DNA from: Siphonodentalium dalli
Lineage: Eukaryota; Mollusca; Scaphopoda; Gadilida; Siphonodentaliidae
DNA length: 64,000 bases
Direction: 5' to 3'
NCBI GenBank assembly: GCA_032622095.1
Contig: CP136061.1
Coordinates: 40,923,797 to 40,987,796 of the forward strand
Below are positions 3,822 to 63,381 of the stretch, piece after piece (within the stretch, counting starts at the first letter, position 1; each line of letters begins with the position of its first letter). The translations under genes and the position numbers were made by a program. Below the pieces are notes generated by a model, which did no database searches, was not told the DNA's origin, and worked only from the letters and a program-made list of their open reading frames with translations.

Positions 3822-4176
3822 TTAACCCTTTACTCAACAGAACGACCCTGTGCCAATGCATTCTCTTATATATGCGAGTCGACCATAGGTCGCCTCGCAT
3901 ATATCAGAGAATGCATTGGCTTAACACATTAAAAATTATAAAATTGTTAAAGAATGTAAGAAAAAATGGTAAATTAGGCCAATGCATTCTCTTATATATG
4001 CGAGGCGACATATATATAAGAGAATGCATTGGCACAGGGCATAACTGTAACCATCACAATATGGTCAATGAGCCGGTTCCAATGATATCCATATTTGTAT
4101 GGTTTTATTGAGACAGACCCAAGATAATTTAGGCTGTTGCAGCTTTATTTGGCCGTTTTGTTGGGTAAAGGGTTAA
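3822..4176. mobile_element. Family A foldback, TTAACCCTTTACCCAACA type
   Basis: Ends are TTAACCCTTTACTCAACA and TGTTGGGTAAAGGGTTAA. It contains two copies of the GCCAATGCATTCTC palindrome (3853-3924 and 3979-4033, the second with a shorter loop). The TTAA on both sides fits piggyBac-type target duplication. The paralogous repeat at 52701 lacks the insertion and has a single TTAA at the same place. Confidence 0.92.
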
Positions 4177-5689
4177 TTCGGATTACGCATCTTTAATACA
4201 TGTTACGCGTACGTGTGGCTGAACCTTGCTATATATTATAGCGTCTTCTTTGAAACTTCCTTGAGTAGATTCGGCCAACAGATTGAAAATACTAAGTAGA
4301 ATGATGGATTTGTGCTTCAACATATCTATGATGAGTTTGAGCTTCCTGTAGTGCACATGATTTGCGCTTCACGCGGCCTCAGTGCAAATGACTATACGCT
4401 TCGGCGTAAATATTTGCACTGAAGCGAAAATTGCATGTGAAAATGGCATGTCAGAGATATCGAGACAGTTTCGAATTCAAACCAGTTTGATCACGTAATA
4501 ATTATCGAACTCTCCCTGTGCAAATCGAATGACAACATGACAGTCCTAAAATATTTATACAGATACCGGTGTATATATCAAAATCAATGTGTGAACTGGC
4601 AGAGTGTATAGTCTGTGTAGAATAGATATATATCGGAATACCTAATCGCGTAGAATAGATATCGGAATACTTAATCGACCATATAGCAGCTAATGTCTTG
4701 TTTAAAACTTCCTTGAGTAAATTCACCCGACAGCGTAGGTGGCCAGACAAACTCTATACAATGAATTGCTCTATGGGGCGTGTTTAAACTGTCAGAGAAA
4801 AAATGTATAGTCCTTAGATACACTCAAAGGCTTTTTGTGATTGCTTTGACATGAAAAATCAATGGGTCTCGATACCCATCGATAAGATGTTTGTCTATAG
4901 GTTTATTTATATATACTTGTCGTGATTCCGAACGGAATATTTTCTACTTTCTATTGTGAAACCCGGGAGTGAAACTTGATCGATTCGTTGTATGGAAAAG
5001 TAAATTCGATCACTGTTGGATGCTGAATTATTGAGTCTTCAATCTCTTGATATAGCAGGTATGTGGTGACAACATCATTCTATTATATCAGTTTTATTTG
5101 TGATATAATTATATAGCCGGCGACTTGGCCGAGTTCAAGAACGGGCCTGCAGATTCCTCACTATAAAATCGTCTGCCCGGGGTGTGTATGGCGACAAAGA
5201 GAAGGCATGTGGGCTGACGTGCGACAGAGGGTTGGGGTGTCTCAGCCCTAATTTTCGTAATTTTCCAAGAGTTGGAAATTTCATGCCGAACACAATATAA
5301 GTTGGAAATTTTAGACCAACAGTAGGTTCAAATTGTTCTGGAACTTCTAGTACATGTATACTATATTATTCAATTGTGAAATAATGCGCTACAGCAAAAC
5401 CATGCTTTCTGATATAGTTTGATTTGCAACCAGTATTGTATGTGTAATTTGCTCATTTTATCACAAATATTTAATAATTTCCTTCTTTGGGGTAAATTTA
5501 AAAAAAAATGAATTTGCCACCAGTTGCACATTCCTGTCAGGTTGGAACTTTCCAACATAAGTTTGAGTTTGAGGCAGGGGTGCATGGGGTAATCGTATTC
5601 TGTATGTATATGGTATCGAGGTACCAGTTGGAAAATTTCAACCCAAAATTTCCAGAACATGCAAACGTCTTAAATGGGGTGCAATGGAC

Positions 5690-6100
5690 GTGCAATTGGA
5701 AATTCTAACTTGGACACCCCCCCCCAACAGCGGTTTCAGTCCAAAAATACGTTGAAACATTTCCAAGTTCCAACCAATCAGGGAGATGTTAACCCTTCCA
5801 TGACAGGATTGTGTTGGTGCAGCATTAAAGACACCGTGCCGGTGCATTCTCTTATATGAATGTACTGGTTTACAAGGTCAAGGTATATATTATCGATGGG
5901 ATCGAGACTCGCATATATAAGAGAATGCATTGGCACAGGGTTTTCGTAAACATTCAGGAAGCTCCCGTCATGGAAGGGTTAAGTTGAAGTTTCAAGATAG
6001 TTGGATAGAGGGAGACGTGATAATGAATGTTTACTCTGCGAATGTTGGTCTTCAAGGGGTGGAGTTGGAAATTCTAAAGGTTGACACCCCCCCCCCCACA
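5690..6100. repeat. Direct repeat GGAAATTCTAA..GACACCCCCCCCC around a family A copy
   Basis: TTGGAAATTCTAACTTGGACACC at 5696 is echoed by TTGGAAATTCTAAAGGTTGACACC at 6064; both run into a C9-C10 tract. Related TTGGAAATTT phrases occur from 5263 on. Probably old repeat sequence; no coding features. Confidence 0.5.
5789..5982. mobile_element. Family A foldback, CCATGAC type
   Basis: Ends are TTAACCCTTCCATGAC and CATGGAAGGGTTAA. The inner palindromes are worn: the left one is represented by GCCGGTGCATTCTCTTATAT, the right one ends GAGAATGCATTGGCACAGGG. The termini are intact. Confidence 0.85.
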
Positions 6101-6918
6101 ACAAAATACCATGCACCGCGATATAGCCAATGTCCCTGTCGCATGGCCATGTTATGCAACAGGAACTATTTAGATATTTAATCTTCTCTTCTTCTGACTC
6201 GACCAGTATTTGCAGAACGTTGTATGATTATTGAATCATAGCCACATCAAGAGAATTTTAAAGTTGCGCGATAAACAAAGTTTTGTCCGTTTTGTTAATT
6301 CCGACAATTACATTTCCCCTTTTGTGTTTTTCCCGCCAAAACGAATGTTGCCGATGGGTAAACAGAAAGTGGCAAGTGACAGCCAGTTACATAATACTCT
6401 TCTTCATACTGATATGTAGCGTGTGATAAACGTAGGAACCAGTTCCACACAAACGGTAGGGTCGGTGCCACGAAGGCGTTCCGTGTGATGTCAATTTAGC
6501 AGTTAATCTGCTCCAATAATGCTGATGTGATAGCTCTGTCTGCCCAAAAGCGCTAATACAATGGCGCTGTCATTTCATTTCGCGGTATCAGAGGAACACT
6601 TATTTGTTATGAGTATAGGGTAGGTGCCAAAATATAAACTGCATCTTAAATTTGTCGGACCTATGAGAGTCCAAAATTATATATTAATATTGAGTTGCGC
6701 TGAAGCATAATCTAAATTGCATTTCATCTCAATTCAATTGACCTTCATCACAATTAAAAAAATATTTAATTGCACTTTAGACTGCTTTAGAACAATTATT
6801 TACTCTTGTATAATGGCTTACCACCCTCAAAGTTTATTGCACTAAGTGAAAGCATACCGACAGTTTGGTCTTAATCCAAAGTGACTTCCACAGAGCATTG
6901 CCCAAAAATAATAATTGT

Positions 6919-7727
6919 GCTTCAGCCACAGTTACTGGACATAAAGTCCAAAAATAAGCGTTTAATCGAGTTTATAATATAAATCGGTATCGTAATATAA
7001 TATGAAGATATGAAAACATTAAAAAATGGCCGGGCAAACATATCTCAAATAAAAGCATTAAACACAAAATATCCGGCATATGTCGCCTGTTTCCTATATA
7101 AATAACATACTCAGCTACAACTTGGCAGTGATAAAATCATTCCTGACGCCAAATTAATGGAATTAAAAACATTTTTCACCATTAGCGACGGGTGACTTGT
7201 CGCCATCCATCCTCTACTTATTTAATCGCTGGTGTCGAGCCACAGTTTTGAATGATCAGTAGGGGGTAAATTTCTTAGAATAGAGTACCAGTGTTTTCTG
7301 ACACCATGAGTCAGTGTGGCATGTTTATTGAGAGAGGAGTATACACTGTAGTTATTAATTTGCGCATTTTTAGAGGATGTCTTCTGAGTTTTGAAAAATA
7401 TTGTTTCAGGTGACCTTGACCCCACCAATGTCAAGTAGTAGTAGCGATTTCTTCGAAACTGTGGCTCCAGACACCAGCGATTGAATAAGTACATGTATAG
7501 GAAAACATGGTGAAAAATGTTTTAAACTCCGTTAATTTGGCATCCGGAATGATTTTATTACTGCAGAGTATGCCGGGTATTTTGTTGTTCAGTGCTTTTA
7601 TTTGAGATATGTTTGTCCGTCCGTTATTTAATGTTTTCATAACTTGAGTACATTATATTATGATACCGATTTATAAACTCGATTAAACCCTTATTTGGGT
7701 CTTATGTCCAGTAACTGTGCTTCAGCT
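6919..7727. repeat. Large imperfect inverted repeat
   Basis: The arm 6919-7186 (CAGTTACTGGACATAAAG.., AAACATATCTCAAATAAAAGC) is repeated as its reverse complement at 7508-7727 (GCTTTTATTTGAGATATGTTT.., CTTATGTCCAGTAACTGTG). A loop of about 320 bp separates them. The arms are around 80-85% alike by eye. It looks like an old foldback element; no terminal duplication was found. Confidence 0.75.
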
Positions 7728-9147: not shown

Positions 9148-9155
9148 GTTATAAG

Positions 9156-10430: not shown

Positions 10431-10504
10431 TCATTACAACTGATAAGAATAACCAAAAAGAAAATATAGAATTATTATCTAAGATGATGTATTAGAGAGT
10501 TGAT

Positions 10505-10718
10505 ACAATAATGCCCTAAGTAATCGACCCCTTAACCACCGCAGAATTATGGGTAACTTTTCAGGATTTAGTCGGAAATATGGCTTGTTGCCATTCATCG
10601 GAAGCTCTCATTGAGGGCTTTCCGATGAATAGCAACAAACCATATTTTCGACTAAATCCTGAAAAGTTACCCATAATTCTGCCGTGGTTAAGGGGTCGAT
10701 TATTTAGGGTATTACTGT
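10505..10718. mobile_element. Family C foldback
   Basis: Near-perfect palindrome with ends CAATAATGCCCTAAGTAATC and TTAGGGTATTACTGT and a short loop near 10613. The TACAGT-like end suits a Tc1/mariner-type MITE (TA target). Confidence 0.9.
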
Positions 10719-10866
10719 ATTTGGAGGGTTAGTGTTGAGGGTACCATAAAAATTATATTAAAAAAAATAAGAAAGTTTTACCTGCCTACTGACCCTCATT
10801 TTTCAGCCTATGAGCGGAAACAAATATCTCTTGTTTAATAGCCTTACCTTTTCACTCACTTTCCAG

Positions 10867-12078: not shown

Positions 12079-12341
12079 TTAAACCTACCATGACTGAAGC
12101 TTTCTGAAATTTTGCAAAAACCCTGTGCCAATGCATTCTCTATATATGCGAGTAACCCATAGGGAGCCTCTTATATATAAGAGAATACATTGACCTAACA
12201 ATATTTACCTTGATCTTGTAAAACCAGTGTATTCTCTTATATATGTGAGGCTCCCTTTGGGAGATGCACATATATAAGAGAATGCACTGGTATAAGATCT
12301 TTAATGCTTCACCAGCGCAACTCCCGTCATGAAAGGGTTAA
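12079..12341. mobile_element. Family A foldback, CATGAC type
   Basis: The right end CATGAAAGGGTTAA is intact; the left end (TTAAACCTACCATGACTG) is worn. It has two hairpins, GCCAATGCATTCTC..(12128) and CCAGTGTATTCTC..(12223-12292). Confidence 0.85.
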
Positions 12342-15904: not shown

Positions 15905-16287
15905 TGTGACCCGCCATATCAAATCCAGTCGTAAGTCGGGATTTTTTTTACCCTGTGCCAATGCATTCTCAATTTTTTACAATTATAATAATTTTTTCTT
16001 GTATTCTTTAACAATTTTATAATTTCACCCATACAGAGCCCCAGACAAACATGAGCAGACGACACTCTTCTATATGCTTCTATATATGTGTGGGGCTCCC
16101 TGCAGGGTAATGGATGTTTTTTATTTTATGTCCTAAAAAATGTAAGAAACATTTATTAAAAAAAAAAGATTTTTTTTTTAGGCCAATGCATTCTCTTATA
16201 TATGGTCGACTCGCATATATAAGAGAATGCATTGGCACAGGGTCAAAAAAATCCTGTCTTACGACTGGATTGATATGGCGGGTCACA
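15905..16287. mobile_element. Family A foldback, TGTGACCCGCC type, one hairpin broken
   Basis: The outer ends TGTGACCCGCCATATCAAAT and ATTGATATGGCGGGTCACA are inverted. The left inner hairpin has lost its second half (GCATTCTCAATTTTTTACAA), the right one is complete. It has no TTAA ends, unlike other family A types. Confidence 0.88.
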
Positions 16288-16442: not shown

Positions 16443-16890
16443 TGTGACCCGCCATATCAAATCCAGTCGTAAGTCGGGATTTTTTTACCCTGTGCCAATG
16501 CATTCTCTTATATATGCGAGTCGACCATAGGTCGCCTCGCATATATAAGAGAATGCATTGGCCTAACAATTTTTTACAATTTTAATAATTTTTTCTTGTA
16601 TTCTGTAACAATTTTATAATTTCACCCATACAGAGCCCCAGACAAACATGAGCAGACCACACTCTTCTATATGCTTCTATATATGTGTGGGGCTCCCTGC
16701 AGGGTAATGAATGTTTTTTATTTTATGTCCTAAAAATTGTAAGAAACATTTATTTAAAAATATTGTTAGGCCAATGCATTCTCTTATATATGCGAGGCGA
16801 CCTATGGTCGACTCGCATATATAAGAGAATGCATTGGCACAAGGTAAAAAAAATCCCGACTTACGACTGGATTTGATATGGCGGGTCACA
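16443..16890. mobile_element. Family A foldback, TGTGACCCGCC type, complete
   Basis: Same outer ends as the previous copy. Two full 69-bp palindromes occur, at 16496-16563 and 16769-16838, facing each other. Between them lies a shared spacer with CAGAGCCCCAGACAAACATG. Confidence 0.92.
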
Positions 16891-18678: not shown

Positions 18679-18911
18679 TTAACCCTTTGAGTGCCAGGTC
18701 GATTTTTGTAGCAACCCATATACCCTGTGCCAATGCATTCTCTTATATATGCGAGTCGACCATAGGTCGCCTCGCATATATAAGAGAATGCATCGGCCTA
18801 ACAATTTTTTATTTTTTTTACAATTTTAATAATTTATTCTTATATTCTTTAACAGACTTATTTTGTAGGTTTAGGGCCAATGAGATCGGCCCCTGGCACT
18901 CAAAGGGTTAA
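18679..18911. mobile_element. Family A foldback, TTAACCCTTTGAGTGCCAGG type
   Basis: Ends TTAACCCTTTGAGTGCCAGG and CCTGGCACTCAAAGGGTTAA are perfect inverted copies. It has one complete palindrome (18727-18796). It forms the left arm of a larger inverted repeat with 20024-20313. Confidence 0.92.
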
Positions 18912-18993: not shown

Positions 18994-19217
18994 TTAACCC
19001 TTCCATGACTGGAGCTTCATGAAATTTTGCGTAAACCCTGTGCCAATGTATTCTCTTATATATGCGAGTCTTCCATTGGGAGCCTCGCATATATAAGGGA
19101 ATACATTGGCCTAACAACATTTACCTTGACCTTGTAAGCCAGTTGATTCTCTTATATATGCGAGGATCTTTAATGGTGCACCAGTGCGGCTCCCGGCTCC
19201 CATCATGAAAGGGTTAT
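18994..19217. mobile_element. Family A foldback, CATGAC type
   Basis: Ends TTAACCCTTCCATGACTGGA and CATCATGAAAGGGTTA; the right end reads TTAT where TTAA is expected. First hairpin complete (19041-19110), second reduced to one arm (19142-19164). Confidence 0.85.
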
Positions 19218-20084: not shown

Positions 20085-20313
20085 TTAACCCTTTGAGTGC
20101 CAGGGGCCGATCTCATCGGCCCTAAACCTACAAAATAAGTATGTTAAAGAATATAAGAATAAATTATTAAAATTGTAAAAAAAAAAATTGTTAGGCCAAT
20201 GCATTCTCTTATATATGCGAGGCGACCTATGGTCGACTCGCATATATAAGAGAATGCATTGGCACAGGGTATATGGGTTGATACAAAAATCGACCTGGCA
20301 CTCAAAGGGTTAA
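20085..20313. mobile_element. Family A foldback, TTAACCCTTTGAGTGCCAGG type
   Basis: Mirror copy of 18679-18911, with perfect ends and one complete palindrome (20193-20262). The flank 20024-20084 is the reverse complement of 18912-18972. Confidence 0.92.
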
Positions 20314-21343: not shown

Positions 21344-21502
21344 TTAACCCTTCCATGACTGCATGGTACTTCATAAAATTTAGCAAAAACCATGTGCCAA
21401 TGCATTCTCTTATATATTTGAGTCTTCCAGGGAGACTCGCATATATAAGAGAATGCACTGGCACAGGGTCTTTATTGCTGCCCCAGCGTAACTCCCATCA
21501 TG
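21344..21502. mobile_element. Family A foldback, CATGAC type, right end lost
   Basis: Left end TTAACCCTTCCATGACTGCA; one hairpin with a shortened loop (21396-21464). The right part stops at CTCCCATCATGAG, lacking AAGGGTTAA. Confidence 0.8.
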
Positions 21503-22430
21503 AGTATCATCATCAATATTTTGCCTAAAATGTGGAATTTAAATTTCAGCAGCTTTAATTTTAATCCCATTATGCATATGCCTGTACACCATGGGCATTA
21601 TGTTTGCACACAAAGGTGCAGAATCATGTGCATCAAAGGGATTAGGCTCCATTAATCCATACAAAGTCTCACTAATTATTTAACAAGAAACATTAAAAAG
21701 GCATTAGACCATAAATGATCCGCGCACTTATCTTGCTACATGCGACAATAGCCATGTGGGTATTCAGCCGTGGTCACTATAGATTTGTCGCCTATCGAGT
21801 ACAACATGATCTAACATGCTCGGATTTTAGAGCCCATGTTTTTCTATGGTGAACAAATACACCCCATACATGCTCAATGTGGAGTGCTGGCTGTGTACAC
21901 ACAATTAGTTAAGGTTTCAAGTTATGATCTGCCCTGGTATGGTTGAAGCCCATGATAACGATTGATAATATTTGGATATTTACGGATTAAACCTCATTTA
22001 CATGTTGTGCTTTCTTTGTTTGTGACATCATGATGTCTAAATCTCCAGGTAAATGATTAATCAGTTCTGTTTCTGTCTTATTTTCACTTTTATATTGATT
22101 GTTTGCAGAATTTTCATTCTTTTCACAACAGTTTTGACATGTTTTATCGACACCGTGGACCATTTAGCATGGCTGGTGTTGAGGTATTCTGTAGAGTTAT
22201 CTAAGCATGGCCTGGAATACTAACATTCATGAATTCGTTCATTGAGCACATGAGTGTATTTTGCACTAAACCTGGATTCATTCATTCATTTGTTGATTTT
22301 ATTCTGTTGAGTACATGTATATTCAAGGAGATGGTCCCATAAATTGCTAGATTTAGTGTACAGTCCCCCTTTAATATTCAAAACTGCTAAAGTTAACTTA
22401 AAATTCATCAAATATGTCGTCAGTTACAAT
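21503..22430. other. Intron sequence, no element recognised
   Basis: AT-rich sequence without long open frames, terminal repeats or similarity to other parts of the window that I could see. Confidence 0.45.
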
Positions 22431-25957: not shown

Positions 25958-26132
25958 ATATGTTTCAGTGGACCTGGCTGGTTAAATAATTTGGGGGTAG
26001 GAGATCAACACATACATTGTATATAACTCTGTGCGGAAAACTTCCAACCAAACCTGTTGACATCGCACTGAAAAAAAGCTTCTTTTTTAATACTTTGATG
26101 CGTGATTTTCATAGTAAAACAACTTGGCACCT

Positions 26133-26351
26133 ACAGTAATGCCCTAAATAATCGACTCCTTAACCACAGCAGAATTGTGGGTAATTTTTCAGGATTTAGT
26201 ATGAAATATGGCTTGTTGCCATTCATTGGAAAGCTCTCCTCACTGAGAGCTTTCCAATGAATGGCAACAAGCCATATTTCCTACTAAATCCTGAAAAATT
26301 ACACATAATTCTGCTGTGGATAAGGAGTCGATTATTTAGGGCATTACTGTA
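26133..26351. mobile_element. Family C foldback, complete
   Basis: ACAGTAATGCCCTAAATAAT and ATTATTTAGGGCATTACTGT ends with near-perfect pairing across the whole 219 bp. Confidence 0.92.
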
Positions 26352-26693: not shown

Positions 26694-27153
26694 TGTGACC
26701 CGCCATATCAAATCCAGTCGTAAGTCGGGATTTTTTTTACCCTGTGCCAATGCATTCTCTTATATATGCGAGTCGACCATAGGTCGCCTCGCATATATAA
26801 GAGAATGCATTGGCCTAACTTTCTTTTACAATTTTAATAATTTTTTCTTGTATTGTTTAACAATTTTATAATTTCACCCATACAGAGCCCCAGACAAACA
26901 TGTGCAGACAACACTCTTCTATATGCTTCTATATATGTGTGGGGCTCCCTGCAGGGTAATGGATGTTTTTTATTTTATGTCCTAAAAATTGTAAGAAACA
27001 TTTATTTAAAAAAAATGATAAAAAATTGTTAGGCCAATGCATTCTCTTATATATGCGAGGCGATCTATGGTCGACTCGCATATATAAGAGAATGCATTGG
27101 CACAGGGTAAAAAAAATCCCGACTTACGACTGGATTTGATATGGTGGGTCACA
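26694..27153. mobile_element. Family A foldback, TGTGACCCGCC type, complete
   Basis: Third copy of this type. It has two full palindromes (26747-26816 and 27030-27101) and the same spacer as 16443-16890. Confidence 0.92.
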
Positions 27154-27849: not shown

Positions 27850-28064
27850 ACAGTAATGATCTAATTAATCGACCCCTTAACCACAGCAGAATTATGGGTA
27901 ACTTTTCAGGATTTAGTCGGAAATATGGCTTGTTGCCATTCATCGGAAAGCTCTCCCCGAGAGCTTTCCGATGAATGGCAACAAGCCATATTTCCGACTA
28001 AATCCTGAAAAGTTACCCATAATTCTGCTGTGGTTAAGGGGTCGATTAATTAGAGCATTACTGC
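27850..28064. mobile_element. Family C foldback, complete
   Basis: ACAGTAATGATCTAATTAAT ... ATTAATTAGAGCATTACTGC; near-perfect arms meet at TCTCCCCGAGAG near 27958. It ends about 30 bp before the decoy copy of exon 3. Confidence 0.92.
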
Positions 28065-28772: not shown

Positions 28773-28989
28773 TGCAGTAATGCTCTAATTAATCGACTCC
28801 TTAAACACAGAAGAATTATGGGTAACTTTTCAGGATTTAGTCGGAAATATGGCTTGTTGTCATTCATCGGAAAGCTCTCGGTGAGAGCTTTCCGATGAAT
28901 GGTAACAAGCCATATTTCCGACTAAATCCTGAAAAGTTACCCATAATTCTGCTGTAGTTAAAGAGTTGATTACTTAGGGCATTACTGTA
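28773..28989. mobile_element. Family C foldback, complete
   Basis: GCAGTAATGCTCTAATTAAT ... TTACTTAGGGCATTACTGTA, arms nearly perfect, loop GCTCTCGGTGAGAGC. Confidence 0.9.
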
Positions 28990-30315: not shown

Positions 30316-30562
30316 TTAACCGTTTAATGATGGGAGCTGTACTGGTTCAGCATTAAAGATCCTGTGCCAGTGCATTTTCTTATATATAGAGAATCTACAC
30401 ATATATAAGAGAATGCACTGGCTTACAAGGTAAAGTAAATATTGTTAGGCCAATGTATTCTCTTATATATGCGAGGCTTCATACAGGACTCGCATATATA
30501 AGAGAATGCATTGGCACAGGGTTTTCGCAAAATTACAGGAAGCTCCAGTCATGGAAGGTTAA
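30316..30562. mobile_element. Family A foldback, CATGAC type, 28 bp after exon 3
   Basis: Ends TTAACCGTTTAATGATGGGA (worn) and CCAGTCATGGAAGGTTAA. Two hairpins: CCAGTGCATTTTCTT.. (short loop) and GCCAATGTATTCTC.. (30450-30515). Confidence 0.85.
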
Positions 30563-30675
30563 CTTTTATCCTCATGTTCATTGTATTTTCGTAAACATGA
30601 ATGAATGCAAGTCCTAGAAGAATTCCACTTGGCTCAAATTGTGTCGTGTTTCTCTTTTCAACCTGAAGATTCAGT

Positions 30676-32262: not shown

Positions 32263-32818
32263 TTTAGGATATAAATGGTTAAAGATGGTCTATATCTTCC
32301 CAGAAAGTTTTATATAGATTCCCGGGTATAAAATGATAGATATGATTCAAGGTTACCTGTCCGAAATTGCTTCTATCAGTTAAAATTGATTTTATTTTGA
32401 TTTTTCTTGTACTATACATACAACAATTTGGGACAGTTTTACAGGCTATTTTTAGAACAGATGTGTTCGGAATGTAGCAACAGAGGGTACACTATCTTGT
32501 TAGGCCAAAGAAAAAAATATTTGTGGTTTGGGTTTCCCAAAATAGAATTTTTTCTAAAAAGATTTAAAAAAACACAATTTGAGCAACTCAGAATAGGTTG
32601 ATTTCTTGGTAAAAGTATGGTGCAATATTAAAATTTATACAATAATAATCAAAAGTAGTTTTATGTCAATCTTGGAGAGTAAAATATGCACATGAAAAGT
32701 AATAAGAATATATCAAAATAAAAAAAATAATTAAAAAATACAATTTCAGGCCTACCTACCGACCCTATTTTTTCGGCTTGTAACCCAAACCAACCATTTT
32801 CTTTTCTTTGGCCTTAGC

Positions 32819-32892
32819 ACTTTGGGAGACTTGCATATATAAGATAATGTATTGGCAAAATTTAAGGAAGCTCCAGTCATGGAAGGGTTAAC
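32819..32892. mobile_element. Family A right-end fragment
   Basis: One hairpin arm (CTTGCATATATAAGATAATG..TTGG) and the right end CCAGTCATGGAAGGGTTAA remain. It sits about 70 bp before exon 5. Confidence 0.8.
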
Positions 32893-37353: not shown

Positions 37354-37561
37354 CAAGCCTTGAAATAGGGTGTCTGTCATTTGCAGAATGAGGTCCCCAG
37401 AGGGTGAATTTAGTGATGCTACACTGCATAGTGGGCTAGCATCACCAAATTCACCCTCTGGGGACCTCATTCTGCTTACACCTCATAGTGGGCTAGCATC
37501 ACTAAATTCACCCACTGGGGACCTCATTCTGCAAATGACAGACACCCTATTTCAAGGCTTG
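37354..37561. mobile_element. Family D element with perfect 8-bp target duplication
   Basis: Ends CAAGCCTTGAAATAGGGTGT and ACACCCTATTTCAAGGCTTG are inverted copies. The flank GATCTGAA is present on both sides (37346-37353 and 37562-37569), the clearest case in the family. It contains three blocks of the GAGGTCCCCAGAGGGTGAAT signature. Confidence 0.95.
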
Positions 37562-37938
37562 GATCTGAAAGCATCTTGATAGAGGTGTTAACATTTCCTA
37601 TAACATTATAACACACCACTATTTGTAAGTCTTTTCTGAAATGAAGGGTGTTGAATGACAGTAGTTTAAAATTACTTGCACAATTGAAAATGGCTTGCCA
37701 AAACTTTTGCAAATTTAAAATACTGTTTGCCAAATCTGGCCAAATGGGAATAATTATATTTATATTTGGTGAACGGCAGCATGAACACTGCTTGGCATTC
37801 TCGATATTAAATTCACGTATATTAATTCTTGAAAAGTAGTGATGTGCGGTTTATAAATTTCATTTTGGTTTCGGTATGCTTTATGTAGAAAAACCAGGTT
37901 TTGGTTTCGGATATGGTTTTACTCAATACAGCAATTTG

Positions 37939-38330
37939 TTACCCAACAAACCGGCCAAAACCGGCCAAATAAAGCTTCAACAGCCTAAAATATCTTCGGT
38001 CTGTCTCAATAGAACCATACACATATGGATATCATTGGAACCGGCTCCTTGACCACATTGTGATAGTTACAGTTATGCCCTGTGCCGATGCATTCTCTTA
38101 TATATGCGAGTCGACCATAGGTCGCCTCGCATATATAAGAGAATGCATTGGCCTAAACAAAATCTTTTTTTAACACTTTTTACCATTTTTTCTTACATTC
38201 TTTAACAATTTTATAATTTTTAATGTGTTAAGCCAATGCATTCTCTTATATATGCGAGGCGACCTATGGTCGACTCGCATATATAAGAGAATGCATTGGC
38301 ACAGGGCCCTTCTGTTGGGTAAAGGGTTAA
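37939..38330. mobile_element. Family A foldback, CCCAACA type
   Basis: The left end is worn (TTACCCAACAAACCGGCC); the right end TGTTGGGTAAAGGGTTAA is intact. Two full palindromes face each other (38086-38153 and 38231-38301). Confidence 0.9.
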
Positions 38331-38950: not shown

Positions 38951-39082
38951 GTTAGTTATCCTTCCTATAAATTAGAGAAATAATTGGAGATTAACAAGCT
39001 TTACCAGCAAACCAATCATTCTCAAGTGTTTCAGTCCACATGATTTAAATAGTAATGACTCATTTCAACCTATAAATTATAT

Positions 39083-39297
39083 ACAGTAATGCCCTAAGTA
39101 ATCGACTCCTTAAACACAGCAGAATTATGGGTAACTTTTCAGGATTTAGTTGGAAATATGGCTTGTTGCCATCATCGGAAAGCTCTCCCCGAGAGCTTTC
39201 CGATGAATGGCAACAAGCCATATTTCCGACTAAATCCTGAAAAGTTATCCATAAATTTGCTGTGTTTAAGGAGTCGATTACTTAGGGCATTACTGTA
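39083..39297. mobile_element. Family C foldback, complete
   Basis: ACAGTAATGCCCTAAGTAAT ... TTACTTAGGGCATTACTGT, loop CTCCCCGAGAG near 39185. Confidence 0.9.
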
Positions 39298-39682
39298 CAT
39301 GCAAGTAGTTTGGGAGAAGGGATATTCAAACATACATACAAGCTGATTTTCGAAAAGTAATCGGTAAATCTTGTTATTTATGACTCCAATTTAGCTGGTT
39401 TATAGGGGGTGTGGTTATAGAATGAAAACCTTTCTTTTCTATGCAGATTTTTCACGATTTTTGGACAATTTCTCATTTTAAACACCATTTTCCACCTAGT
39501 TATTGTATCAAACAATGATTATAATGATTATTGTTACTTACTCCCAAAGTCAGATTGTTGATAAAAAATGTTTTATACCCAGAGTATTGATGACTGACAA
39601 CCAAAAATAATGCATTTATTGAAGCGAATAACAATGTCGTAAGCAATATTGTCAGCGGGTAGTTAGTTGCCTAGCAACCGTT

Positions 39683-39925: not shown

Positions 39926-40311
39926 TTAACCCTTTACCCAACAAAAGGGCCCTGTGCCAATGCATTCTCTTATATATGCGAGTCGACCATAGGTCGCCTC
40001 GCATATATAAGAGAATGCATTGGCTTAACACATTAAAAATTATAAAATTGTTAAAGAATGTAAGAAAAAATGGTAAAAAGTGTTAAAGATTTTTTTTAGG
40101 CCAATGCATTCTCTTATATATGCGAGGCGACCTATGGTCGACTCGCATATATAAGAGAATGCATTGGCACAGGGCATAACTGTAACCATCACAATGTGGT
40201 CAATGAGCCGGTTCCAATGATATCCATATTTGTATGGTTTTATTGAGACAGACCCAAGATAATTTAGGCTGTTGCAGCTTTATTTGGCCGGTTTGTTAGG
40301 TAAAGGGTTAA
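39926..40311. mobile_element. Family A foldback, CCCAACA type, complete
   Basis: Ends TTAACCCTTTACCCAACAAA and TTTGTTAGGTAAAGGGTTAA. Two full palindromes at 39956-40025 and 40098-40169. It starts 12 bp after a family D element and ends about 80 bp before exon 8. Confidence 0.93.
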
Positions 40312-41900: not shown

Positions 41901-42163
41901 TTAACCCTTTCATGACGGGAGCTGCGCTGGTGCAGCATTAAAGATCCCTGTGCTAGTACATTCTCTTATATATGTTAGTCTCACATAGAGAACCTCGCAT
42001 ATAAAGAGAATGCACCAGCTTACTAGGTCAAGGTAAATATTGTTAGGCCAATGTATTCTCTTATATATGCGAAGCTCCCTATGGGAGAATCACATATATA
42101 AGAGAATGCATTGGCACATGATTTTCGTGAAATTTCAGGAAGATCCAGTCATGGAAGGGTTAA
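41901..42163. mobile_element. Family A foldback, CATGAC type, complete
   Basis: Ends TTAACCCTTTCATGACGGGA and CCAGTCATGGAAGGGTTAA. First hairpin CTAGTACATTCTC (worn), second GCCAATGTATTCTC..GAGAATGCATTGGC (42046-42115). Confidence 0.9.
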
Positions 42164-44554: not shown

Positions 44555-44959
44555 GTACGAATGAAAATCTCTGTAGAACAATGCTAACATGTAACGTAAC
44601 TAACATGATGGAACTATGATGAAACGCTGGAATTTGCATTGAAGATCAATAACATTGTCCTGTTCTAAAAATAACCACTCTACCTTCCCCCTCCTTTTAT
44701 ATATTTATATATTACATTTGAATTTTGAATTATTGAAACATATTTCAAATCAAAAAGGTAATCTGCAATTTGTCGATATACATATAGCCAAAAATTGTGT
44801 AGTGTACATGATGAATTTAAAAATTAATATTAGTTTATAAATCATTGCCGTAGCACAAAAAAGAGGCAGAAATAATTCCTCTGCTACATGTGCTCTCAGT
44901 TCTTATATGCATGTTAAAAACAGGCTTGTGTATAAAATAATATTAGTTCTCTTCAAGAT

Positions 44960-45175
44960 ACAGTAATGCCCTAAGTAATCGACCTCTTAACCAAAGCAGA
45001 ATTATGGGTAACTTTTCAGGATTTAGTCGGAAATATGGCTTGTTGCCATTCATCGGAAAGCTCTCAGGGAGAGCTTTCTGATGAATGGCAACAAGCCATA
45101 TTTCCGACTAAATCCTGAAAAGTTACCCATAATTCTGCTTTGGTTAAGAGGTCGATTACTTAGGGCATTACTGTA
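44960..45175. mobile_element. Family C foldback, complete
   Basis: ACAGTAATGCCCTAAGTAAT ... TTACTTAGGGCATTACTGT, loop AGCTCTCAGGGAGAGCT. Both arms carry the compensating change CCAAAGCAG / CTGCTTTGG, so they are still perfectly paired there. Confidence 0.92.
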
Positions 45176-45681
45176 TGTAAATATATATATTTGAATGAGA
45201 TGATGTAGGATGATGGATGAAAACTAGAAACAATGTTCCTCTTAAACACGTTATTGATCTGTTATCCATCCCTCCGTCAGTCTGTCAGTACTATGGACTC
45301 AATACAATTCAGATGAACTTTATCTATTGTGTTGATTTGGAGTAGGTCATATTGTCTGTTTTTGACAAGATGATGAAAACATTCTAAATTGATCATGGGC
45401 AATCATTTTCTGTTTTGATTCAGAAATGACTAGAATAAGATGTATTTGTTCTATATCTATTATCTAACATGAATATTGCAAGATTAAGCACCATTGTTAT
45501 ATTACTTATCATTATCAATGTTGATAAATATCACAATACAGGCATGTTCTGATAATGAAGAATATGTGAATTTAAAACTTAAGACACAGCACATGAGTAA
45601 AACAAGTCTGTGACATGCATTATTAGATGACAATTCCAGTCAAATAGAAATGGTGTTCATGTGAATTATATTGGTGTCATT

Positions 45682-46132
45682 CAAGTCTGAGTTTTGTGTG
45701 CCTGTCATTTGCAGAATGAGGTCCCCAGAGGGTGAATTTAATTACGCTATCCCACATAGTGGGCTAGCATCACTAAATTACCCTCTGGGGACCTCATTCT
45801 GCATGGCCTTATCTGCTATGGGAGACTCAGAATGAAGTTCCCGAATGATGAATATTGTGGGTACACCCATTGGGAACCTCGATTATGCAATGTGTCGTCT
45901 ACCAATTTGGGGATATAGAGAAACTAAACTAAAAAAGAAATAGAATCTATTTGAAGAAGTTTCTATAGAAATTTGATCACAAAGAAACTTTCAAGAAAAG
46001 ATGAGACCTGAGCAGAATGAAGTCCCAGAGGGTGAATTTAGTGATGTTAGCCCGCTATGTGGGATAGCGTCACTAAATTCACCCTATGGGGACCTCAATC
46101 TGCAAATGACAGGCACAGTAAACTCAGTCTTG
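45682..46132. mobile_element. Family D element, long form
   Basis: Ends CAAGTCTGAGTTTTGTGTGC and CAGTAAACTCAGTCTTG. The 8-bp flanks GTGTCATT and ATGTAATT match in 6 of 8. Two signature hairpins are joined by an internal part (GAATATTGTGGGTACACCCA, GAAACTTTCAAGAAAAGATG). It ends 53 bp before exon 10. Confidence 0.88.
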
Positions 46133-46185
46133 ATGTAATTATACCGAGTCAGCTGCTGTTCATCCCTCGCACTGATTCATTCTAG

Positions 46186-50194: not shown

Positions 50195-52305
50195 TAGCTC
50201 AACTTTACTTTGTAAAGTTTGAGCTATTGCCATGGCTTTGTCGTCCGTCGTCCGTGTGTACGTGTGTGCGTGTGTGCGTGTGTACGTAAGGCGTCAACAA
50301 TAGAGGCTACAGGTCGTACCTTTGATCGGATCATTATGAAATTTGTCATAGCTGTTGACATCAACATTTGTACCGGAATGATTCATTTTGGGGTCATTCG
50401 GAAAAAAAACATGGCCGCCAGCGGCCATCTTAGATTTCAAAATTCAATCCATTAGCACGGGCTACAGGCCGTACTGTTCGTCTGATCGTCATGAAATTTG
50501 TCATGGATGTTAATATTGACATGTAGATGGGAACGAGTAATTTTGGGGTCATTCGGCCAAAAAACATGGCCGCCAGCAGCCATCTTCGATTTTACTCTTT
50601 GCATGACTAAATCCTTTAGCACGGGCTACAGGTCGTACCTTTAGTCAGATCGTCATAAAATTTGTCATGGATGTTAACAATGACATGTAGATGGGAACGA
50701 GTCATTTTTGGGTTATTCGGGCAAAAAACATGGCCGCCAGTGGCCATCTTTGTTTTCAAAATTCAATCCATTAGCACGGGCCACAGGTCGCACTGTTCAT
50801 CATAAAATTTGTCATGGATGTTAACAATGACATGTAGATTGGAACGAGTCATTTTGGAGTCAATCGGCCAAAAAACATGGCCGCCAGCAGCCGTCTTGGA
50901 TTTTACTCTTTGCATGACTAAATCCTTTAGCACGGGCTACAGGTCCTACTTTTAGTCTGATCATCATAAAATTTGTCAAGAATGTTAATAATCACATGTA
51001 GATGGGAACGAGTCATTTTGGGGTCATTCGGCCAAAAAAGATGGCCGCCAGCAGCCATCTTGGATTTTACTCTTTGTATGACTAAATCCATTAGCACGGG
51101 CTACAGGTCGTACCTTTAGTCTGATCATTATAAAAATTTTCATGGCTGTTGAAATTGGAATGTAAATGGGAACAAGTCATTTTGGGGTCATTCGGACAAA
51201 AAACATGGCCGCCAGCGGCCATCTTGGATTTCAAAATTTAATCCATTAGCACGGGCTACAGGTCGTACTGATTGTCTGATCATCATGAAATTTGTCATGG
51301 ATGATAATATTTACATGTAGATGGGAACGAGTAATTTTGGGGTCATTCGGCCAAAAAACATGGCCACCAGCAGCCATCTTAGATTTTACTCTTTGTATGA
51401 CTAAATTCTTTATCACGGGCTGCAGGTCGTACCTTTAGTCTGATCATCATAAAATTTGTCATGGATGTTAACAATGACATGTAGATGGGAACGAGTAATT
51501 TTGGGGTCAATCGGCCAAAAAACATGGTCGCCAGCAGCCATCTTGGATTTTACTCTTTGTATGACTAAATCCTTTAGCACGGGCTACAGGTCGTACCTTT
51601 AGTCTGATCATCATAAAATTTTTCATGGCTGTTGAAATTGGAATGTAAATGGGAACAAGTCATTTTGGGGTCATTCGGACAAAAAACATGGCCGCCAGCG
51701 GCCATCTTGGATTTCAAAATTTAATCCATTAGCACGGGCCACAGGTCGTACTATTCGTCTGATCATCATGAAATTTGTCCTGGATGTTAATGTTGATATG
51801 TAGATGGGAACGAGTAATTTTGGGGTCATTTGGCGAAAAAACGTGGCCGCCAGCAGCCATCTTGGATTTTACTCTTTGTATGACTAAATTATTTAGCACG
51901 GGCTACAGGTCGTACCTTTAGTCTGATCATCATAAAATTTGTCATGGATGTTAACAATGACATGTAGATTGGAACTAGTCATTTTGGGGTCAATCGGCCA
52001 AAAAACATGGCCACCAGCAGCCATCTTGGATTTTACTCTTTGTATGACTAAATTCTTTAGCATGGGCTACAGGTCGTACCTTTAGTCTGATCGTCATAAA
52101 ATTTGTCATTGATGTTAACGATGACATGTAGATGGGAACGACTCATTTTGGGGTCATTCAGCCGAAAACATGGCCGCCAGCAGCCATCTTGGATTTTACT
52201 TTTCTCTTCATGTCTATAAACTAGTATTAGACATTCAACTTTCCACATTCCTAATCGCTCCATTGACTGTAATATATTAAATTATTCCCTTTCCAAGTTG
52301 AGCTA
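50195..52305. repeat. Array of about 12 'heading' units of about 160 bp with TAGCTCAACTT ends
   Basis: AACATGGCCGCCAGC..CCATCTTGGATTT recurs near 50411, 50568, 50731, 50878, 51042, 51207, 51360, 51525, 51688, 51844, 52008 and 52170. Between them are GGGCTACAGGTCGTACCTTT, TCATCATAAAATTTGTCATG and GATGGGAACGAGTCATTTTG. Units alternate irregularly between an ATTCAATCCATTAGCACGGG and a TACTCTTTGTATGACTAAAT form. The whole is bounded by TAGCTCAACTT and AAGTTGAGCTA, which are inverted. No long open frame. Confidence 0.88.
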
Positions 52306-52745: not shown

Positions 52746-52823
52746 GCATAAAACTGTTACATGTTCTCTAAAGTTCTGCTAAATTTGTTGAATGTTTGGT
52801 CACATTTCTGCATTCTATTATAG

Positions 52824-52940
52824 ATGAGAAGTACAACAAATCTGACCGGCCGAGTCACGCTTATACCTCGAGCAGTTTGAGAAAAACTCAAAGCATGGAT
52901 AGGAGTTATGATGAAAGTTACAGGGGTGTAGACAGGAAGG
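52824..52940 (+). CDS. Exon 11: short Ser/Tyr-rich segment
   Basis: The acceptor is TTCTATTATAG; the donor is GAAGG|GTATGT at 52941. It is 117 nt, phase 1 at both ends. It encodes EKYNKSDRPSHAYTSSSLRK and then TQSMDRSYDESYRGVDRK. RKTQSMD looks like a basophilic kinase or 14-3-3 site (inference). An intronic CCCTTACC/CCCCTCAATAA-rich array begins right after the donor. Confidence 0.85.
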
Positions 52941-55784: not shown

Positions 55785-55945
55785 TTCAACCTTTCATGGG
55801 GTTCATTATGGGAGCTGCGCTGGTGCAGCTATAAATATCCTGTGTCAGTGCATTCTCTTATATATGCGAGGCTCCCTATGGGAGACACACATATATACGA
55901 GTATGCATTGGCACAGGGTTTTCGCAAAATTTGAGGAAGCTCCGG
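55785..55945. mobile_element. Family A foldback, CATGAC type, ends worn
   Basis: TCAACCTTTCATGGGGTTC, one hairpin CAGTGCATTCTC..GAGTATGCATTGGC (55847-55913), and TTTTCGCAAAATTTGAGGAA. The right TTAA end is lost. Confidence 0.78.
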
Positions 55946-56060
55946 TAGTAGAATATTCAAATATGCTTCAACTTTGGAATAAGATATGGTTTATTATCGC
56001 CAAGATATTGTTCATAAAGTTTTATTCAACCTGTAAGGACTGATTTGCATGCTGCTTGGT

Positions 56061-57135: not shown

Positions 57136-57556
57136 CAAGCATGAGTTTAGTGTGTCTGTCATTTGCAGAATGAGGTCCACAGAGGGTGAGTTTAGTGACG
57201 CTATCCCACACAGCGGGCTAGCATCACTAAATTCACCCTCTGGGAACCTCATTCTACATGACCTCACCTGCTATGGGAGACATTGACTCAGATTGAAGTT
57301 CCCAAATAGTGAATATTGTGATGTACACCCATTGGGAACCTCGATTATGCAATGTGTCGTCTGCAAATTCGGGGATATAGAGAAACTAAACTAAAAAAGG
57401 AATAGAATCTATGTGAAGAAGTTTCTATAGAAATTTGATAATAAAGAAACTTTCCAGAGAAGATGAGGCCTAAGCAGAATGAGGTCCCAAGAGGGTGAAT
57501 TTAGTGATGCTAGCCCACTATGCGGTAGAGCGTCACTAAATTCACCCTCTGGCTTG
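57136..57556. mobile_element. Family D element with perfect 8-bp target duplication
   Basis: Left end CAAGCATGAGTTTAGTGTGT; right end shortened to CTCTGGCTTG. The flank CTTAGAAT is identical on both sides (57128-57135 and 57557-57564). It is the long form with the GAAACTTTCCAGAGAAGATG inner part. Confidence 0.92.
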
Positions 57557-59143: not shown

Positions 59144-59358
59144 ACAGTAATTATCTAAGTAATCGACTTCTTAACCACAGCAGAATTATGGGTAACTTTT
59201 CAGGATTTAGTCGGAAATATGGCTTGTTGCCATTCATCGGAAAGCTCTCCCCGAGAGCTTTCCGATGAATGGCAACAAGCCATATTTCCGACTAAATCCT
59301 GAAAAGTTACCCATAATTCTGCTGTGGTTAAGAAGTCGATTACTTAGAGCATTACTGC
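59144..59358. mobile_element. Family C foldback, complete
   Basis: ACAGTAATTATCTAAGTAAT ... TTACTTAGAGCATTACTGC, loop CTCCCCGAGAG. Arms almost perfect, so it may be a recent copy. Confidence 0.92.
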
Positions 59359-60491: not shown

Positions 60492-60891
60492 TTAACCCTT
60501 TACCCAACAAACCGGCCAAAACCGGCCAAATAAAGCTTCAACAGCCTAAATTATCTTCGGTCTGTCTCAATAGAACCATACAAATATGGATATCATTGGA
60601 ACCGGCTCCTTGACCACATTGTGATAGTTACAGTTATGCCCTGTGCCAATGCATTCTCTTATATATGCGAGTCGACCATAGGTCGCCTCGCATATATAAG
60701 AGAATGCATTGGCCTAAAAAAAATCTTTTTTTAACACTTTTTACCATTTTTTCTTACATTCTTTAACAATTTTATAATTTTTAATGTGTTAAGCCAATGC
60801 ATTCTCTTATATATGCGAGGCGACCTATGGTCGACTCGCATATATAAGAGAATGCATTGGCACAGGGCCCTTTTGTTGGGTAAAGGGTTAA
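60492..60891. mobile_element. Family A foldback, CCCAACA type, complete, 25 bp before exon 13
   Basis: Ends TTAACCCTTTACCCAACAAA and TTTGTTGGGTAAAGGGTTAA are a perfect pair. Two full palindromes at 60646-60714 and 60793-60862. Confidence 0.95.
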
Positions 60892-60916: not shown

Positions 60917-61115
60917 GAAGGAGAACTCCAGCTGCAGGACCAACCAGCTTCGCTAAGTCGAGCTCGTCATTTCGTAACTCTATGCCGTCATCAACGGAGA
61001 AGACGTCATCTAAGTTAGGGAACACCAGCGGGTTACGGAGCATCACTCCGACTCCCATAGCAACACAACACAACAAACATATGCTGAAGATAGAGGATGT
61101 AGGCATATTATCACG
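60917..61115 (+). CDS. Exon 13: linker before the CAP-Gly domain
   Basis: The acceptor is CTGATCTGATTCAG; the donor is ATCACG|GTATGC at 61116. It is 199 nt, opening with two bases and ending in phase 2. It encodes RRTPAAGPTSFAKSSSSFRN, then SMPSSTEKTSSKLGNTSGLR, then SITPTPIATQHNKHMLKIED, then VGILSR. It is basic and Ser/Thr/Pro-rich, as is common beside microtubule-binding domains. It is boxed in by transposons: a family A element ends 25 bases before it and a family D element starts 17 bases after its end. Confidence 0.87.
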
Positions 61116-61132
61116 GTATGCAGCCATTTATA

Positions 61133-61382
61133 CAAGCCTTGAAATAGGGTGTCTGTCATTTGCAGAATGAGGTCCCCAGAGGGTGAATTTAGTGATGCTA
61201 CCCCGCATAGCGGGTTAGCATCACCAAATTCACCCTCTGGGGACCTCATTCTGCTTACACCTCAGCAGAATGAGGTTCCCAGAGGGTGAATTTGTTGATG
61301 CTAGCCCGCTATGCAGGGTAGCATCACTAAATTCACCCTCTGGGGACCTCATTCTGCAAATGACAGACACCCTCAAGGCTTG
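61133..61382. mobile_element. Family D element with perfect 8-bp target duplication, 17 bp after exon 13
   Basis: Ends CAAGCCTTGAAATAGGGTGT and GACACCCTCAAGGCTTG. The flank CATTTATA is identical on both sides (61125-61132 and 61383-61390). Two complete signature hairpins. Confidence 0.95.
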
Positions 61383-61457
61383 CATTTATACACATATGTT
61401 ATATCTTAGATCATTAGGATCAGACCATTTAGAAGTTGGACAGCAATAAATTCAGTT

Positions 61458-61663
61458 TTGAGGTGCAGCGTTAAAGATCCTGTGCCAGTGAATTCTCTTA
61501 TATATGTAAGTCTCCCATATGGAGCCTCGCATATATAAGAGAATGCACTGGCTTACAGGGTCAAGGTAAATCATGTTAGCCAATGTATTCTCTTATATAT
61601 GTGAGAATGCATTGGCACAGGGTTTTCGCAAAATGTTATGAAGCTCAGTCATGAAAGGGTTAA
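61458..61663. mobile_element. Family A foldback, CATGAC type, left end lost
   Basis: Begins at GGTGCAGCGTTAAAGATCCT without its TTAA end. First hairpin CCAGTGAATTCTC..GAGAATGCACTGGC, second shortened (GCCAATGTATTCTC..GAGAATGCATTGGC with almost no loop). Right end CAGTCATGAAAGGGTTAA. Confidence 0.87.
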
Positions 61664-61746
61664 ATATTCCCCAATTTGATGACAAACAGTGACTTTTTAC
61701 CTGCATATTTTGTCTGCTTACACTAGACGTATATCTATCATTGTTA

Positions 61747-62325
61747 TTAACACTGTCTTTACTAAATACACATTTACGAGTAGTTCCCTTAGGAAATGTT
61801 CAGATAATAACTTCAACAAACAACCATAGGTCAATATGATTCTGATTTAACCCTTTCAGTGCCAGGGGCCGATCTCATCGGCCCTAATTTACATTCTGTA
61901 AAATCGGCCCTAAAAAAATAAAAATTTGTCTGTTAAAGAATATCAGAAAAAATTATTAAAATTGTAAAAAATAATAACAAATGATGAAAAATTGTTAGGC
62001 CAATGCATTCTCTTATATATGCGAGGCGACCTATGGTCGACTCGCATATATAAGAGAATGCATTGGCACAGGGTATATGGGTTGATACAAAAATCTGACC
62101 TGGCACTGAAAGGGTTAATTCAGGCAGGAAGGAGAACTCCATTGGTCGTTTGTTGATGTTATTATCTGAACATCTCCCAGCCTCTCACCAAAGAATTTGA
62201 ATCCTTCTGCACTTTTCATCTGACTGACGTCTACTTATGTATCCATAACTTCCCTCCAAATGAATAATAGACCATCCCAATGTATACTGTTGTAAATGAA
62301 TGGGAGAATCCATTCAGTAAATAAC
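61747..62325. mobile_element. Family B element carrying a nested family A insertion
   Basis: TTTACTAAATACACATTTAC and ACGAGTAGTTCCCTTAGGAA on the left, CAATGTATACTGTTGTAAAT and GGGAGAATCCATTCAG on the right. The hairpin GTTCAGATAATAACTTCAAC / GTTGATGTTATTATCTGAAC is split by the family A copy at 61847-62117. Confidence 0.9.
61847..62117. mobile_element. Family A foldback, AGTGCCAGG type, nested in family B
   Basis: Ends TTAACCCTTTCAGTGCCAGG and CCTGGCACTGAAAGGGTTAA are perfect. One full palindrome (62000-62069). The host sequence reads continuously on both sides of one TTAA. Confidence 0.95.
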
Positions 62326-62491
62326 GGGTGGAGACATTGGCTATTGATGGATATTCATGTGGTTAAGGTGTGGTGTAGCTTTGCAGGTTTTTCCATTAAT
62401 TTGTCAATTGATATCTGTAACGCATGTATTTATATGCAAGATGTGGTTTTTCTGTGAAGAAAGTTTATCCATTGTTATTTTTCTTCTGCAG

Positions 62492-62667
62492 AACACTGAC
62501 ATCAGGATTGAAGCCATTCGCTCCAAGAAATCCTGCTGACGTCAAAATTGGTGACGTCATAAAATTCTCCAGACAGGGTGGAAAGTTGAGTCAGGGTTTC
62601 GTCAAATATATCGGCCATCTTCCGGGTCGAAGTGATGTATATGTTGGAGTGGAGCTGGATAAAGAAG
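62492..62667 (+). CDS. Exon 14: first half of a CAP-Gly domain
   Basis: The acceptor is TATTTTTCTTCTGCAG; the donor is AAAGAAG|GTAAAT at 62668. One base completes an Arg codon from exon 13, then TLTSGLKPFAPRNPADVKIG, DVIKFSRQGGKLSQGFVKYI and GHLPGRSDVYVGVELDKE. This matches the CAP-Gly fold: a start strand (KIGDVIKF), the G-VKYIG strand, and the signature W/YVGVELD. Family members use this domain to bind tubulin C-terminal tails. The position usually held by Trp before the VGVEL strand is Tyr here (VYVGVEL), as in several other members. It ends in phase 1 and continues in exon 15. Confidence 0.95.
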
Positions 62668-62786
62668 GTAAATTAGATGTTTCGACAATATATTACAGGA
62701 ACAAGACGTAATTACAATATTATCTATTATAAAGAAATGCCGATGATGCTAATTATAATCCCATAAAATCATTCAATTTCCAGTTA

Positions 62787-63381
62787 TTAACCCTTTCATG
62801 ACTGGAGCTTCCTGAATTTTTGCGAAAACCATGTGCCAATGCATTCTCTTATATATGTGAGTCGACCATATGTCGCCTTGCATATATAAGAGAATGCATT
62901 GGTTTAACAAATTTAATATAATTATCTATAATTGTTAAAAATGTAAGAAAAAAATGATAAAAATTTGATAAAAAGAGTGTAAGATAATGATAAAAAATGA
63001 ATTTTTTTTTAAAGAATGTAAGAAAAAATGATAAAGTATGTAAGAAAAATGACAAAAAAAAATGATAAAATTCTTAAAGAATCTGAAAGAATGTTAAAAA
63101 AAATGATAAAAAATTCTTAAAGAATATAAGCTCTTTTTTTTTTTAAAGAATGTAAGAAAAAGTTATAAAAAATGATAATAATTGTTAAAGAATGTAAGAA
63201 AAAAATGATAAAAATTGTTAAAGAATGAAAGAAAAATTGATAAAAAATGAAAAGCATTGTTAGGCCAATGCTTTTTCTTATATATGCGACGCGACCTATT
63301 GTCGTCTCGCATATATAAAAGACGCATTGGCACAGGGTCTTTAATGTTGCGCAAGCGCAGCTCCCGTCATGAAAGGGTTAA
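62787..63381. mobile_element. Family A foldback, CATGAC type, with expanded A-rich spacer
   Basis: Ends TTAACCCTTTCATGACTGGA and CGTCATGAAAGGGTTAA. Palindromes at 62837-62905 and 63263-63331. Between them about 350 bp of AAGAATGTAAGAAAAAATGA / TAAAAA units, expanded from the short spacer seen in other copies. Confidence 0.92.

Follow-up and report, generated by a model that had tools for sequence, protein, structure and literature searches.

The closest described counterparts of the elements reported here are the CMITEs of the coral Acropora, miniature inverted-repeat transposable elements (MITEs) in which different terminal inverted repeats (TIRs) surround a common internal region, target sites are TTAA, a link to piggyBac is made and the origin of the interior is left open (Wang et al. 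2010, PMC2872659). Here we analyse a stretch of 64,000 nucleotides from the scaphopod mollusc Siphonodentalium dalli (G000:C1:40923797-40987796, contig C1 being CP136061.1; genome of 2.227 Gb in 9 contigs), called the window throughout, in which a palindromic hairpin module, M, is shared by four types of MITE with different outer ends. M occurs in elements flanked by TTAA and in elements that are not, and hybrids join the ends of one type to the interior of another. We consider it likely that M is a captured module which is carried along inside several MITE families and passes from one to another.

The S. dalli elements resemble the CMITEs in an interior that varies less from family to family than the TIRs do, in TTAA targets and in tips that are mostly CCCTTT. 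In the coral, one family was tied to a piggyBac-like element, and one element carried another family's type of interior. The CMITEs are about 100 bp long, have an interior of 75 bases and are estimated at 1,600 copies, whereas the elements described here measure about 200-600 bp, hold one or two 69-bp hairpins in their interior and are represented by 81,050 exact cores. Unlike in the CMITEs, one family here lacks TTAA flanks, and the break points of hybrids lie at the module border (PMC2872659). Within the window, no homology to the 60-bp CMITE interior was found (longest match 16 bp, best E 0.2). The original prediction was aware of no described family with this layout; that none exists is not correct, as coral CMITEs share it. 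Among the papers listed in searches of the open-licence literature, none dealt with a palindromic core common to TTAA and non-TTAA MITEs, and the best account of the present elements is that of a larger, palindromic, cross-superfamily variant of the coral layout.

Two further systems are comparable in part, each judged from excerpts of its source. The MER6 MITE carries the conserved domain of V-SINEs and so offers a conserved module from elsewhere that multiplied by riding in a MITE, but it involves one module in one MITE and a variant, and is not described there as palindromic or as having a set of unrelated ends (PMC6887750). In the Galileo foldback elements of Drosophila, as here, chimeras combine one subfamily's ends with another's interior and have been ascribed to ectopic recombination and conversion; there, however, the partners in exchange are subfamilies of a single transposon, whereas here they are families that differ in ends and targets (PMC3573991).

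Results

A shared palindrome lies within a larger module

The 69-bp core, GCCAATGCATTCTCTTATATATGCGAG-TCGACCATAGGTCGC-CTCGCATATATAAGAGAATGCATTGGC, is a palindrome, and blastn matches it at 36 distinct places in the window, 26 of them aligned over at least 60 bp. The remaining ten are pieces of 14-57 bp, a few of which (e.g. 52809-52829, E 0.24) may be chance matches; one shuffled window yielded only a 15-bp match to the core (E 0.85). Genome-wide, CCCTGT followed by the core (75 bp) has 81,050 exact copies (40,622 and 40,428 on the two strands), and the same pattern reversed has none. Folded in silico, the core gives one long hairpin (-36.1 kcal/mol, equalled by 0 of 200 shuffles) and a complete type 1 element gives a foldback (-131.3 kcal/mol, equalled by 0 of 100). 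With long, near-perfect inverted repeats that fold on themselves, these elements are foldbacks. The palindrome had been predicted in about 17 of them, and its 36 places in about 20 window elements bear this out. It was also predicted to stand twice, mirrored, in most copies; this holds for about 14 of the 20 elements when partial cores are counted, and fails for type 2 and some type 3 elements, which have a single core.

Reading the elements base by base reveals that their common part exceeds the palindrome. Module M consists of CCCTGT, the core hairpin, CTAA with an A/T-rich spacer, the mirrored core and ACAGGG; the palindrome, first taken for the conserved part, is indeed common, but the CCCTGT/ACAGGG borders and the spacer are common too. 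Type 1 has a short spacer, type 4 a spacer with the extra centre GAGCCCC...GGGGCTC, and type 2 only one half of M. Judged by local alignment, the spacers of types 1, 2 and 4 are homologous, with scores of 71 for types 1 and 4 (shuffle maximum 41) and 65 for types 2 and 4 (shuffle maximum 35), neither reached in 300 shuffles, and 42 for types 1 and 2, reached by 1 of 300.

Deletions and rearrangements resembling template switches were seen within the palindromic cores at 15957-15970 and 3978-4033 and at loci L096, L103 and L120, as is expected of unstable perfect hairpins. A search of the window against Rfam gave no match at the gathering score, and five open reading frames gave just two weak Pfam matches, both below the cut-off.

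Four end types differ in sequence and in target site

All four of the predicted unrelated outer ends are present in the window. By our reading of the search outputs, about 20 elements carry them, namely four of type 1, three of type 2, three of type 4 and about ten of type 3, several of the last being degraded:

3822-4176, minus strand: type 1 with TTAA ends; cores 3852-3920 and 3978-4033, the second truncated
37937-38330, plus strand: type 1; cores 38084-38152 and 38232-38300; left tip degenerate, start approximate
39926-40311, minus strand: type 1; two exact cores, 39956-40024 and 40100-40168
60492-60891, plus strand: type 1; two exact cores, 60645-60713 and 60793-60861; the element that was folded
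18679-18911, plus strand: type 2; single core 18729-18797
20085-20313, minus strand: type 2; single core 20195-20263
61847-62118, minus strand: type 2; single core 61999-62067
15905-16287, plus strand: type 4; first core reduced to 14 bp (15957-15970), second 16182-16236
16443-16890, plus strand: type 4; two exact cores, 16494-16562 and 16770-16838
26694-27153, plus strand: type 4; cores 26746-26814 and 27033-27101
5789-5982, unstranded: type 3; two partial cores
12080-12341, unstranded: type 3; cores 12127-12192 and 12224-12290; left tip degenerate, start approximate
18994-19217, unstranded: type 3; core 19042-19110 and a partial one
21344-21505, unstranded: type 3; single core 21396-21462; right tip degenerate, end approximate
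30316-30564, unstranded: diverged type 3; core 30449-30515 and remnants of another; ends approximate
32790-32892, unstranded: type 3 remnant; partial core 32820-32856; start approximate
41901-42163, unstranded: type 3; cores 41959-42014 and 42047-42115
55800-55960, unstranded: type 3 remnant; single core 55846-55912; bounds set by the stretch read
61440-61663, unstranded: type 3; core 61484-61552 plus a partial core; left bound approximate
62787-63381, unstranded: type 3 ends with a long-spacer module; cores 62835-62902 and 63264-63331 with a TCGACC-like loop

Type 1 begins with TTAACCCTTTACCCAACA, type 2 with TTAACCCTTTGAGTGCCAGG, type 3 with TTAACCCTTTCATGAC and type 4 with TGTGACCCGCCATATC. 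An exact 31-bp piece of the long arm of type 1 has 38,457 copies genome-wide, and the relatives listed genome-wide for the element at 3822-4176 are mostly 88-93% identical. The pattern VNVTACCCTGTGCCAATGCATTCTCTTATATATG has 13,523 matches genome-wide, which, among the matches listed, mostly stand at the type 2 flank ATATACCC.

Types 1 and 2, with consensus lengths of 400 and 234 bp (the latter rough, from 24 readings with some duplicates), have CCCTTT tips that fit the motif CC[C/T]T. TTAA stands on both sides in 28 of 29 readings of type 2 and in 109 of 127 of type 1, most type 1 elements being counted once per strand and some misses being elements cut by the end of the locus. Both types are thus piggyBac-like MITEs with TTAA flanks. 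In type 4, TTAA is present in none of ten readings and TA stands on both sides in five of the ten (L019 and L021 are duplicates); this difference means that at least two target specificities are involved. A single core common to all types had been proposed; it holds for types 1, 2 and 4, while the type 3 cores are only 82-89% identical to it, with one exception at 95.6% (62835-62902), and most have a different loop.

Hybrids break at module borders

Beyond the window we read 53 loci among about 100 listed places of the exact 75-mer, all in the first 6.5 Mb of C1. Sorted by eye, they comprise 29 of type 1, 11 of type 2, nine of type 4, one type 1/type 4 hybrid (L059) and three without these ends (L009, L034, L054); the loci are not independent, several being copies of one duplicated segment (e.g. 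L005-L007, L034/L054, L035/L055). Among the 11 type 2 loci, L038 has a type-4-like interior and L005-L007 lack the outer tip.

The hybrids consist of type 1 ends and a type 4 interior, and they break at module borders. In L123, type 1 positions 1-62 are followed by type 4 positions 416-47 (99.2% identity over 371 bp, M with one TA) and finally by the type 1 tip. Since L042, L127 and L131 are put together in the same way, one hybrid has multiplied. L059 is constructed otherwise, with type 1 sequence (125-376) up to the second core, type 4 from there to its very end, and again a type 1 tip. A type 1 element with a single core and no spacer (L081) has the layout that core-by-core recombination would leave. 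The suggestion that the core is captured or exchanged thus finds support in five hybrids (L042, L059, L123, L127, L131).

Copies of M outside the four end types are rare

M with none of the four ends adjoining was seen at L034, L045 and L122, with TA beside both borders; one TA was demanded by the search pattern in L045 and L122 and the other was free, and near L045, at a distance of about 325 bp, lies a type 1 tip that is separate from it. A half-length module in L043, L121 and L135 has TA on the left (demanded by the pattern) and TA one base past GGG on the right; the L121 copy sits inside a type 3 element. Half-length modules at these loci and at L009/L041/L125, where they lie within a duplicated segment, have a right part resembling GGGGCTCCCTGCAGGG. 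The half-length module may be an ancestor of M. The VATACCC... pattern has 674 matches, and 19 usable loci, which are not a random choice, divide into seven of type 2, three of type 3, three hybrids, one of type 1, one of type 4, two half-length modules, one copy of the L009 segment and one solo M. Of the 489 matches to the YYCCC... pattern a single place was read, L049, a type 1 element. Solo and half-length contexts of M are rare.

A conserved consensus, but no slower change in single copies

Substitution rates were measured on 40 type 1 loci fetched by an outer-arm pattern, so that the core was not selected; 29 with both tips present were used, and 11 whose two tips were not both found in the fetched stretch were dropped (L083, L084, L094, L100, L101, L104, L105, L108, L117, L119, L120). 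Against the consensus, and with the 31 selected columns and 19 subfamily-distinguishing columns omitted, the rate was 1.37% in the outer arm before the pattern and 0.77% after it, 2.89% in core 1, 0.96% in core 2, 1.77% in the spacer and 0.95% at the right end. Rearranged copies, which align badly, probably inflate the core 1 value. Special copy-by-copy conservation is ruled out for type 1, since the core changes no more slowly than the rest: single copies are young and the core in them is not protected. Selection on the core in each copy, one of the options raised by the original prediction, is not supported.

At the level of consensus sequences the picture is different. The cores of types 1, 2 and 4 show no difference in 69 positions, while the outer arms are different sequences and the spacers differ at 13 of 70 aligned sites (types 1 and 4), 12 of 66 (types 1 and 2) and 4 of 58 (types 2 and 4). 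Fisher tests of core against spacer give 1.3e-4 (types 1 and 4), 1.1e-4 (types 1 and 2) and 0.041 (types 2 and 4), values of a naive test on A/T-rich, slippage-prone sequence. Type 2 and type 4 loci outside the window were mostly picked because their core is exact or nearly so; the window copies, to which no such selection applied, give the same picture, untruncated cores of types 1, 2 and 4 being 98.6-100% identical. Either the masters are constrained, or the core was passed between families later than their spacers separated, and the data cannot separate the two.

Constraint on the masters would be expected if the core were a docking site for a transposase that needs a shared subterminal palindrome, with the core selected in each master and the ends free to vary beyond CCCTTT. 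The identical core consensus beside differing spacers would fit, as would the position of CCCTGT, which begins about 24-50 bp from at least one tip in all types, and the 19-bp palindromes that are reported in piggyBac ends and bound by a dimer of the cysteine-rich domain (CRD) in work on piggyBat (PMC11707139). We nevertheless regard a docking site as unlikely, because type 4 is not TTAA-flanked, in type 1 the distance from the other tip to the start of the core is about 150 bp, and type 2 lacks a core on one side, where it has a different palindrome of 19 bp (matched by 2 of 500 shuffles). Nor do subterminal palindromes emerge as a common end feature, since among nine ends tried only that coreless type 2 side and L066 (12 of 500 shuffles) stand out. 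The transposase loci described below, with no core in any of the 20 read, argue in the same direction.

No core beside the 20 piggyBac transposases read

A search of the genome for piggyBac transposases gave 128 match rows, all over the cut-off and many with open frames of 500-720 amino acids, a set that has perhaps been recently active. Rows such as C6:111404378 and C1:177559656 apparently represent several subfamilies. Twenty of the 128 were read over about 4.1 kb each, a span in which a core farther out would be missed; none contained the core, and none was an autonomous element that bears the complete ends of one of the types. The proposed piggyBac-like element bearing an end type together with the core was thus not encountered in these 20. 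In four of them (L066, L067, L071, L077) TTAACCCTTT stands near the open frame, followed by sequence that differs from the types; it is plausible on this ground that TTAA-type tips have helpers, none of which matches a type beyond the tip.

Other repeats nearby

P2, another palindromic MITE family with ends of the form TACAGTAATGCCCTAA..., occurs at 44958-45176, 27851-28063, 28775-28987, 26132-26351, 59145-59357, 10503-10720 and 39079-39300, with arms of about 94-108 bp that are 91-99% complementary and TA mostly beside the ends. A third hairpin family, P3 (GCAGAATGAGGTCCCCAGAGGGTGAATTTAGTGATGCTA), is found at 61146-61373, 37354-37561, 45681-46133 and 57180-57551, often with the hairpin twice per element. 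Compared for the same swapping of ends, P2 has one consistent outer end, and most copies of P3 resemble one another closely in theirs, ...CTGTCATTT. At 50305-52200 lies a large tandem array whose periods are 164, 319 and 483 bp. Elsewhere, core or type 1 matches recur at regular steps of about 11.2 kb (C1:820012-920818), 7.9 kb (C1:94237017-94292222) and 14.6 kb (C1:735801-785790), from which large tandem arrays seem to carry these MITEs.

Discussion

The account that we favour, and hold to be probably correct, is that M is a captured hairpin module. It would have entered at least four MITE families that had their own ends. The tips of types 1-3 and the TTAA sites of types 1 and 2 are those of elements moved by piggyBac-type transposases, which would presumably be the enzymes at work, and type 4 would use another target. 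Each composite then multiplied as a unit, as the same M within different ends, the TTAA flanks of types 1 and 2 and the very high exact copy number show. M or its core has also been exchanged between families, as shown by the hybrids with type 1 ends and type 4 interiors, broken at module borders. Exchange is likely to have come about through ectopic recombination or through conversion at the palindromic core, with TA-targeted insertion of M as an occasional addition. The core being its own inverted repeat, and so a direct as well as an inverted repeat of all other copies, any two cores could pair either way, and deletion of the spacer and swaps of flanks would be expected.

Several results weigh against this account. 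No un-recombined intermediate of the type 1 hybrid was found (0 exact matches), though one ancestor could explain all four copies. As to stages before capture, a strict exact pattern for type 1 without M had no matches, and one for type 4 without M matched only at L046, a locus in which there is a deletion as well. An empty site of M was not recovered: the left flank of L009 was found only three times, each time together with the module, and the right flank is part of another repeat. The lack of TA beside M in types 1 and 3 does not suit simple TA insertion, and the 20 transposase loci hold neither the core nor an autonomous element with complete ends. Joined type 4 arms gave no candidates, in a search whose zero shows nothing.

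TA-targeted insertion is central to a further alternative, in which M would be an ordinary MITE that inserts at TA, and every composite an independent case of nesting that involves no recombination between families. M alone, and likewise type 4, would then be candidate Tc1/mariner-like MITEs. TA stands at both borders of M in type 4 and in L034, L045 and L122, on the core side in type 2, and beside the half-length modules of L043, L121 and L135, with the pattern-required positions already noted. The hybrids, though, have TA at one side of M only and a direct join to type 1 sequence at the other, types 1 and 3 have no TA beside M, and solo M is rare, with one case (and two half-length ones) among the 19 VATACCC loci read. 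Nested insertion on its own strikes us as improbable.

We attach a similarly low probability to M being a transferable amplification cassette, such that a combination multiplies once M is joined to compatible ends, whether through recognition of the palindrome by several transposases or through extra copies that arise at replication from hairpin extrusion. Types 1, 2 and 4 would then be three independent successes of one cassette, and M-less types 1 and 4 would be scarce in the strict searches (none and one) because they did not multiply. Decay of a single ancestral end into the four types is unlikely, as types 1 and 2 diverge directly past CCCTTT and type 4 has neither that tip nor TTAA, a judgement based on comparison of consensus sequences and flanks, short of a genome-wide alignment of all copies; the original prediction of a common inside within ends of different families is supported.

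Repeat libraries built from ends alone or from interiors alone will mis-assign such elements. With 81,050 exact 75-bp copies, a single genome would suffice to reconstruct the order of events, and the layout of the coral CMITEs, itself unexplained, gains a second and far larger example in which exchange between families is directly visible. Ends are what define a transposon family, yet in these elements it is the interior that persists and the ends that change, across different target sites.

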